From assembly GCA_036003045.1 (NCBI GenBank), contig DASYSS010000033.1, positions 62,001 through 126,000 on the forward strand: a stretch of 64,000 bases of DNA, written 5' to 3'. The translations under genes were made by a program, and so were the position numbers. Source of the stretch: Gemmatimonadaceae bacterium (GTDB lineage: Bacteria; Gemmatimonadota; Gemmatimonadetes; Gemmatimonadales; Gemmatimonadaceae). Numbering within the stretch: position 1 is the stretch's first letter; each line of letters begins with the position of its first letter. This document shows positions 40,615 through 42,379 of this stretch, piece after piece. Below the pieces are notes generated by a model. The model saw only the letters and a program-made list of their open reading frames with translations, did not search any database and had not been told where the DNA came from.

Positions 40615-40790
40615 CTCCGAGACTGCCACAGTCCGAAACGGCCGTACTCCGAAACGGCCGTACTCCGAAACTGCCGAACACCGAAACTGACGTACTCCGA
40701 GACTGCCCGACTCCGAGACTGCCCGACTGCGACACTGCCCGACTCCGAAACTACCCGACTCCGAAACTACCCGACTCTGAAACTGTGGTC
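40615..40790. repeat. 11 tandem 16-bp repeats, forward array
   Basis: Eleven units of 16 bp follow one another without spacer, consensus CTCCGAAACTGCCCGA. The first unit is 40615-40630; units 6 and 7, and 9 and 10, are identical pairs. The period is strict at 16 bp. Since 16 is not a multiple of three, all reading frames stay open, producing spurious proteins. The inverted array of the same unit follows at 40809-40912. Confidence 0.9.
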
Positions 40791-40808
40791 TCAATGCTCT
40801 TGGCGTCC

Positions 40809-40912
40809 GGCAGTTTCGGTGTTCGGGAGTCTCGGAGTTCGGAAGTCTCGCCCTTTCGGACTTCGGAAGTCTCGGAGTTCGGAAGCCTCGGGGTCCGGAA
40901 GTCTCGGCCTTT
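40809..40912. repeat. inverted array of the same 16-bp unit (six units plus a half)
   Basis: Units of consensus GGAAGTCTCGGAGTTC run from 40809 to 40912, with an 8-bp half unit at 40857-40864. Reverse-complemented and rotated, this is CTCCGAGACTTCCGAA, matching the forward array. An 18-bp centre separates the arrays, so a transcript could fold into a long imperfect hairpin. The pfkA stop is 31 bp beyond the array. Confidence 0.88.
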
Positions 40913-40943: not shown

Positions 40944-42023
40944 TCAATCTCCAAAACTGATCCCCGTCGCCCGCGCGGTCAGCACTAGATCATGCGCCGG
41001 ATCGACACGCTTGGAGTCGCGCAACGCTTCCTTGATCGGAATCGTCACGATGTGCGGCGATTGCAGCGCGACCATGTGCCCCCACTTCTCCTCGGCCACG
41101 GCCCGCACCGCGGCGCCCCCGAATCGCGTCGCCAATAGACGGTCGTATCCCGTCGGCATGCCGCCGCGCTGAAGATGGCCGAGCACGAGCGAGCGGGTTT
41201 CCTTCCCGGTGCGCGCCTGGATCTCGCGCGCGATCGGTTCGCACAACCCGCCGACCCGTCTCGCTTCTCCGGGCAGCGACTCGCCGAGCGTGGACGTCGT
41301 TCCTCCCTTCGGAAACGCGCCTTCGGCCACAACCACGATCGAGAAATGCCGGCCGCCGCGGTCGCGCGCGTCGATCTTCTCGCAGACTTTTTCGATGTCG
41401 TAGGGGATCTCCGGAATCAGAATGACGTCGGCCGTTCCGGCGACTCCCGAGTGCAGCGCGATGAATCCGGCGTCGCGCCCCATTACCTCCATGACGATCA
41501 CACGATCATGCGATTCCGCAGTGGTATGAAGCTTATCAATGGCCTCCATCGCCGTGTTGACCGCGGTGTCGAATCCGAACGTCGTGATCGTGCCGCTCAC
41601 GTCGTTGTCGATCGTCTTCGGCACGCCGACGATCTTCATCCCTTTGTCGCAGAGCTTCTGCGCGATGGAGAGTGACCCGTCGCCACCGATCGAGATGATC
41701 GCGTCGATGCCGAGGCGCGCGGCGTTTTGAAACAGCTCGTCGGAGCGATCCTCACTGAGGATCGTGCCGTCCGGCTGCATCCGCGGATAGTGAAACGGAT
41801 TGCCGCGGTTCGTCGTGCGGAGGATCGTCCCGCCGAGATGCGCGATGCCGCGCACCGTTTCGCGGGTCATCGGGATCACCTCGTCTTCGCCCATCAACCC
41901 GGCGAATCCCCGCTTGATGCCGAGGACTTCCCAGCCCCGATCGACAGCCGAGAGGACGGCCGCGCGAATGACCGCGTTGAGACCCGGCGCGTCGCCGCCG
42001 CCGGTCGAGATGGCGATTCTCAT
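40944..42023 (-). CDS. pfkA: 6-phosphofructokinase (ATP-type by key residues, group III-like)
   Basis: The 359-residue protein has STGGGDAPGLNAVIRAAV at the N-terminus, SIGGDGSLSIAQ (Gly116 at the position of E. coli Gly104) and GVPKTIDNDVSGT with Lys136 where E. coli has Gly124. Gly plus Lys is the combination of ATP-dependent group III enzymes of actinobacteria, while PPi-dependent enzymes have Asp at the first position. MGRDAGFIALHSGVAG and GHLQRGGMPTGYDR complete the active site. It makes fructose 1,6-bisphosphate. It lies seven bases after the selenoprotein-like gene, probably in one transcript. Confidence 0.93.
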   Translation of the reverse strand: MRIAISTGGGDAPGLNAVIRAAVLSAVDRGWEVLGIKRGFAGLMGEDEVIPMTRETVRGIAHLGGTILRTTNRGNPFHYPRMQPDGTILSEDRSDELFQNAARLGIDAIISIGGDGSLSIAQKLCDKGMKIVGVPKTIDNDVSGTITTFGFDTAVNTAMEAIDKLHTTAESHDRVIVMEVMGRDAGFIALHSGVAGTADVILIPEIPYDIEKVCEKIDARDRGGRHFSIVVVAEGAFPKGGTTSTLGESLPGEARRVGGLCEPIAREIQARTGKETRSLVLGHLQRGGMPTGYDRLLATRFGGAAVRAVAEEKWGHMVALQSPHIVTIPIKEALRDSKRVDPAHDLVLTARATGISFGD

Positions 42024-42030
42024 GCGCGCG

Positions 42031-42270
42031 CTAACCGTTGGCGGCGCGACGGGCCTCCAACAGCCGAACGATTTCGCCGGGCGCGGCGTGGCGCTTCAAT
42101 TTCGATTTCTCGAAAATCGGATGACCCTCGTAAAACACCTCGAACCGCCCACCGCTGGACGGGGTCATCTCGACGTCGGCATCGGGAAATCGCTTGCGAA
42201 CCTCGGCGGCCAGACCGGTCGCCCGCGGCTCGTAGTTTCACATCGTGCAGTATTCGATCCTCACGCGCAC
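42031..42270 (-). CDS. SelW/Rdx-family selenoprotein (in-frame TGA read as selenocysteine)
   Basis: The 79-residue protein is read from GTG at 42270 through an in-frame TGA at 42238-42240 to a TAG at 42031. The start MRVRIEYCTMU gives a Cys8-x-x-Sec11 motif where the SelT/SelW/SelH (Rdx) family has CXXC or CXXU. The rest fits the family: NYEPRATGLAAEV, SSGGRFEVFYEGHPIFEKSK and PGEIVRLLEARR. AAAGGAG lies seven bases before the GTG. A hairpin with a GGUCU loop 21 nt after the TGA resembles a bacterial SECIS. Rdx proteins are small thiol or selenol redox proteins. Alternatives are a TGC-to-TGA mutation or a sequencing error. It precedes pfkA. Confidence 0.8.
42205..42223 (-). promoter_or_regulatory. 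candidate bacterial SECIS hairpin
   Basis: On the minus strand, arms GGCGACC (42217-42223) and GGCCGCC (42205-42211) pair with one A-C mismatch around a 5-nt loop GGUCU (42212-42216). The loop matches that of the E. coli fdhF SECIS bound by SelB and begins 21 nt after the TGA, inside the 16-37 nt window known for bacteria. The stem is within coding sequence, as required. Confidence 0.65.
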
Positions 42271-42277
42271 GTCGCGA

Positions 42278-42284
42278 CTCCTTT
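42278..42284 (-). promoter_or_regulatory. Shine-Dalgarno AAAGGAG for the selenoprotein-like gene
   Basis: AAAGGAG sits seven bases upstream of the GTG at 42270. It supports initiation upstream of the TGA and argues that the frame before the TGA is translated. Confidence 0.7.
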
Positions 42285-42341
42285 GGGTCCGGGTTGCGTC
42301 ACGATTCAAGCTTGAAGCATAGCGCGAGGCGTAGCGCGGAA

Positions 42342-42379
42342 AAAAGTCCGGCGGCCTGAAGGGGGGCCGCCGGACTTTT
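42342..42379. terminator. strong bidirectional rho-independent terminator
   Basis: A 15-bp perfect stem (AAAAGTCCGGCGGCC pairing with its complement) with an 8-nt loop has A and T tracts on both sides, so it can act in both directions. It lies after the small lipoprotein gene on the minus strand and before the selenoprotein-like gene. A second 8-bp hairpin (CTCCCCGC, loop TGAG) at 42391-42410 precedes it. Confidence 0.8.

Follow-up and report, generated by a model that had tools for sequence, protein, structure and literature searches.

Does the TGA codon that interrupts a short reading frame in Gemmatimonadaceae DNA specify selenocysteine (Sec), or does it end a peptide, mark a decayed gene or stand for another amino acid? 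The locus lies in a 64,000-nucleotide stretch (hereafter, the window) of a 5.37 Mb Gemmatimonadota assembly, where the original prediction proposed a hidden SelW/Rdx selenoprotein. The gene, selW, occupies 42031..42270 on the minus strand and would encode 79 aa including Sec. Its frame runs from a GTG start (42270-42268), with a Shine-Dalgarno-like AAAGGAG read directly from the sequence 7 nt upstream (42278..42284, minus strand), through the in-frame TGA (42238..42240, minus strand) to a TAG stop at 42031, and each of these elements is present as predicted. Translated, the frame reads MRVRIEYCTM-TGA-NYEPRATGLAAEV..., and the TGA takes the second position of the CxxC motif, giving CTMU (C8-T-M-U11), a CxxU motif. 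When the TGA was translated as an amino acid, the protein scored above the cut-offs of Pfam Rdx (E 6.3e-19), TIGR02174 CXXU_selWTH and NF041051, which bears out the proposed Rdx-family identity; 36/36 aligned SelW sequences matched both TIGR02174 and NF041051, and an existing NCBI model already recognises SelW proteins such as the window's.

A mechanical ORF search reports an overlapping 73-aa ORF (42241-42020) at this locus, and ordinary ORF calling would miss or split selW. One could suppose that this ORF, or a short peptide ending at the TGA, is the true product and that the Rdx likeness is incidental; however, a single frame carries both the Rdx match and the conservation across the TGA, and its predicted fold is confident and resembles SelW structures, leaving that supposition a negligible probability. 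AlphaFold2 modeled SelW with a pLDDT of 95.5 and the element order E-H-E-E-E-H-H, and Foldseek placed the model close to 2fa8, 2obk, 2oka, 3dex, 2ojl and 2p0g (TM about 0.83-0.87) and to mouse SelW 2npb (TM 0.77); searching the PDB with a sequence profile gave a concordant result. The window's SelW is thus predicted to have the thioredoxin-like SelW fold. Mouse SelW (2npb) and the bacterial Rdx structures (2fa8, 2obk, 2p0g and 3dex) have this fold in common with the model (TM about 0.77-0.87) at 25-34% identity, and 2fa8 and 3dex carry Cys at the Sec position.

We found that the TGA is retained in relatives. Among 59 genomes (the window's own and its relatives; many of the compared genomes are fragmented drafts), selW was present in 39 and carried TGA in 39/39; 37 of these loci showed TGA at the CxxU position by sequence reading and 2 more (L045 and L095) under a looser pattern. 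Across the phylum, selW was found in 193 of 395 Gemmatimonadota genomes, about 190 of them with TGA: the codon stands in all the strong matches listed, and when 42 weaker matches were re-searched, 39 had TGA and 3 (in G153, G080 and G213) did not, those in G213 and G080 being weak matches (E 3.5e-9 and 1.4e-12, respectively). The codon to be expected in homologs had been raised along with the original prediction, and it proved to be TGA rather than TGC, with the sole clear TGC form in G153, a genome without Sec machinery above cut-offs. The Sec form outnumbers the Cys form here, which is also the published pattern for SelW-like proteins in bacteria that use Sec (PMC1794560). The SelW alignment has 16 invariant columns, the majority of them 3' of the TGA, and differences after the TGA are commonest at codon position 3. 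A lone in-frame stop within a short gene, in an assembly of draft quality, is also what a pseudogene or a sequencing error would produce, the TGA having arisen by nonsense mutation or by misreading of a TGC; but the same TGA recurs in about 190 separate genomes and the frame 3' of it is under protein-level constraint, and we give this interpretation scarcely any chance. The pseudogene reading was rejected on the conservation of the TGA.

The selenoprotein reading also depends on the genome's capacity to decode Sec. The absence of selA, selB, selC or selD would have spoken against it, and all four were found, so that the Sec-decoding trait is complete in the window's genome. The tRNA-Sec gene (selC; contig C88:52060-52154) scored 70.1 bits (cut-off 47), with a tca (UCA) anticodon assigned by ARAGORN, and it comes directly after selD (C88:51029-51952); selB was matched on contig C94 (360 bits summed over joined pieces) and selA on contig C103 (550 bits). 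Over the 59 genomes, SelW and a strong tRNA-Sec match were both present in 37 and both absent in 15, with SelW alone in 2 and tRNA-Sec alone in 5 (Fisher p 4e-8, a value that ignores shared ancestry). The two SelW-only genomes are G017 and G036; these two, and G178 from the wider genome set, gave no strong tRNA-Sec match in genome searches despite a TGA-bearing SelW, nor was tRNA-Sec found near selB in any of the three. All three have SelB above cut-off, and the absent tRNA-Sec may well reflect a gap in the assembly or a gene that the search overlooked.

The TGC form in G153 (L144; C1:2897494-2897706) comes from a single-contig genome in which searches detected neither tRNA-Sec nor SelB above cut-off. 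This selW keeps pfkA as its neighbor (75% identity), and its hairpin is degraded, with 5/7 positions pairing. Judged on these sequence features, G153 is a putative natural Sec-to-Cys replacement of selW, that is, a natural control, and it is available as a natural comparison of Sec and Cys SelW.

The hairpin in question follows the TGA in the window (42205..42223, minus strand; loop GGUCU at 42212-42216). Counting the T of the TGA as 0, positions 17-23 pair with 29-35 and positions 24-28 form the loop. The predicted onset 14 nt past the TGA and the GGUCU loop 21 nt past it are exact; of the predicted 7-bp stem, the seven positions stand, but the seven base pairs do not, since there are six Watson-Crick pairs and an A.C mismatch (42219/42209). 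The stem is laid out as 2 bp, the A.C mismatch and 4 bp, and the mismatch leaves 2 pairs above. In the bacterial SECIS (bSECIS) model, the apical loop has 3-9 nt with a G in its first two positions and lies 16-37 nt from the UGA, the upper stem has 4-16 bp and the MFE is at most -7.5 kcal/mol (PMC13188914). The window's 25-nt hairpin (MFE -9.3 kcal/mol) agrees with this description in everything except an uninterrupted stem. With an E. coli fdhF-type SECIS it shares the position directly after the UGA, a small apical loop with an early G, and the spacing; it differs from that type in the A.C mismatch of its stem, and relatives differ further in also using AGUUU, AGUCU, AGGCU, AGGUU and GGGCU loops. 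The window's own GGUCU loop presumably resembles that of fdhF.

In single-sequence folding, the window's hairpin was no more stable than shuffles (z 0.30 and 0.15) and not significant alone; support for it is comparative. Stem pairs are formed in 95.8% of cells over 37 SelW sequences, compared with 71.2% (sd 1.9) when synonymous codons were resampled according to usage elsewhere in the gene and 87.8% (sd 0.9) when synonymous codons were shuffled column by column; neither null model reached the observed pairing in 300 trials, a contrast that is inflated by shared ancestry and is to be taken as support, not as a probability. Compensatory changes occur in the outermost pair (G-C, A-U and C-G) and in one inner pair (C-G and G-C), and the position of the window's mismatch is G-C in 26 of the 37 genomes, G-U in 3 and A.C in 8. 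The loop is GGUCU in 15 of the 37 sequences and AGUUU in 12, the rest being close variants. On this comparative evidence, the putative SECIS is conserved beyond coding constraint in the 37 genomes. An Rfam scan of the selW locus gave no match above gathering score, with weak sRNA-like matches on a stem-loop upstream of the gene.

These results also bear on a selenium-free decoding of the selW UGA, whether another amino acid (Cys or Trp) is inserted or termination is leaky. The UGA may to some extent terminate translation or be read through, and the Sec chemistry is deduced from sequence; nevertheless, the presence of selW tracks tRNA-Sec, the clear swap to TGC occurs where SelB and tRNA-Sec were not found, and the SECIS-like hairpin is kept in relatives, making such decoding very improbable. 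We therefore return to the selenoprotein reading, which family match, TGA conservation and Sec machinery all support: selW is almost certainly the gene of a SelW-family Sec protein whose UGA is decoded as Sec. We infer the Sec insertion itself to proceed as follows. The tRNA-Sec(UCA) would be charged via SelA, using selenophosphate from SelD; SelB would carry it to the selW UGA, positioned by the hairpin just 3'; and the UGA would be decoded as Sec, with translation then ending at the TAG (42031). The product would most likely be a small cytosolic thiol/selenol oxidoreductase with a thioredoxin fold, a CxxU active site and a presumed redox activity.

The original prediction also pointed to the neighboring pfkA, and this adjacency turned out to be conserved in the order. 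In the window, pfkA (6-phosphofructokinase; 40944..42023, minus strand; Pfam PFK E 3.5e-104) begins 7 nt past the selW stop. Tandem repeats of period 16, which do not belong to the finding, lie just 3' of pfkA (window 40615-40907). Within the order, 33 of 37 selW loci have pfkA on the 3' side, the distance between the two genes being -10 to 98 nt; because it follows within about 100 nt in these loci, selW and pfkA likely form one co-transcribed operon. Another 30 loci come for the most part from other families of the class, and pfkA adjoins selW in 5 of them; the linkage is therefore not phylum-wide. Upstream, direct reading reveals a GC-rich stem-loop with a T run that resembles an intrinsic terminator (42340..42379, minus strand) and divides selW-pfkA from the upstream gene; because of its position, it suggests that selW may head its own transcription unit. 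A pattern scanner did not include this stem-loop among its terminator calls (flanking A/T runs perhaps extend the stem), and a promoter scan near selW returned no sigma-70-type match. The linkage may point to a functional tie of SelW to glycolysis or sugar metabolism. A bolder proposal, which we hold to be rather unlikely, is that the Sec-dependent SelW of this operon would directly protect or redox-regulate 6-phosphofructokinase, and that glycolytic flux in the order would thus depend on selenium.

Further selenoproteins of the window's genome were sought in two families. A candidate FdhA (L185; C30:53250-55118) has one TGA, in CNRT-U-HAPSVVG at the Sec/Cys position, with a GGUCU-loop hairpin directly after it. 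In two candidate peroxiredoxin-like genes of the AhpC/TSA family, the codon for the peroxidatic residue is an in-frame TGA, in TPG-U-T (L188; C28:90319-90696) and in TKG-U-T (L191; C42:106940-107323). The latter gene also has a hairpin whose loop lies 21 nt after the TGA.

In bacteria, SelW-like selenoproteins form an established family, and Cys homologs of SelW are rare among Sec users (PMC1794560; PMC9312934). The window's SelW shares with the bacterial SelW-like selenoproteins (PF10262 Rdx; TIGR02174; NF041051) the family, the CxxU motif and the predicted thioredoxin-like fold, and differs from known bacterial SelW in its lineage and in a placement before pfkA that is conserved within one order. 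The string 'Gemmatimon' is absent from the main texts of PMC5029168, PMC12013277, PMC13188914, PMC5330540, PMC9312934 and PMC1794560, and none of the papers that literature searches listed has a title on Gemmatimonadota selenoproteins; at the scope of these main texts and titles, the absence of an earlier report is provisional. The mechanism is familiar, its use in Gemmatimonadota appears little documented, and it is the lineage and the pfkA linkage that are worth following. One Gemmatimonadota genome shows a complete Sec pathway together with at least four candidate selenoprotein genes, and the tight linkage of selW to pfkA offers a testable handle on the function of bacterial SelW.
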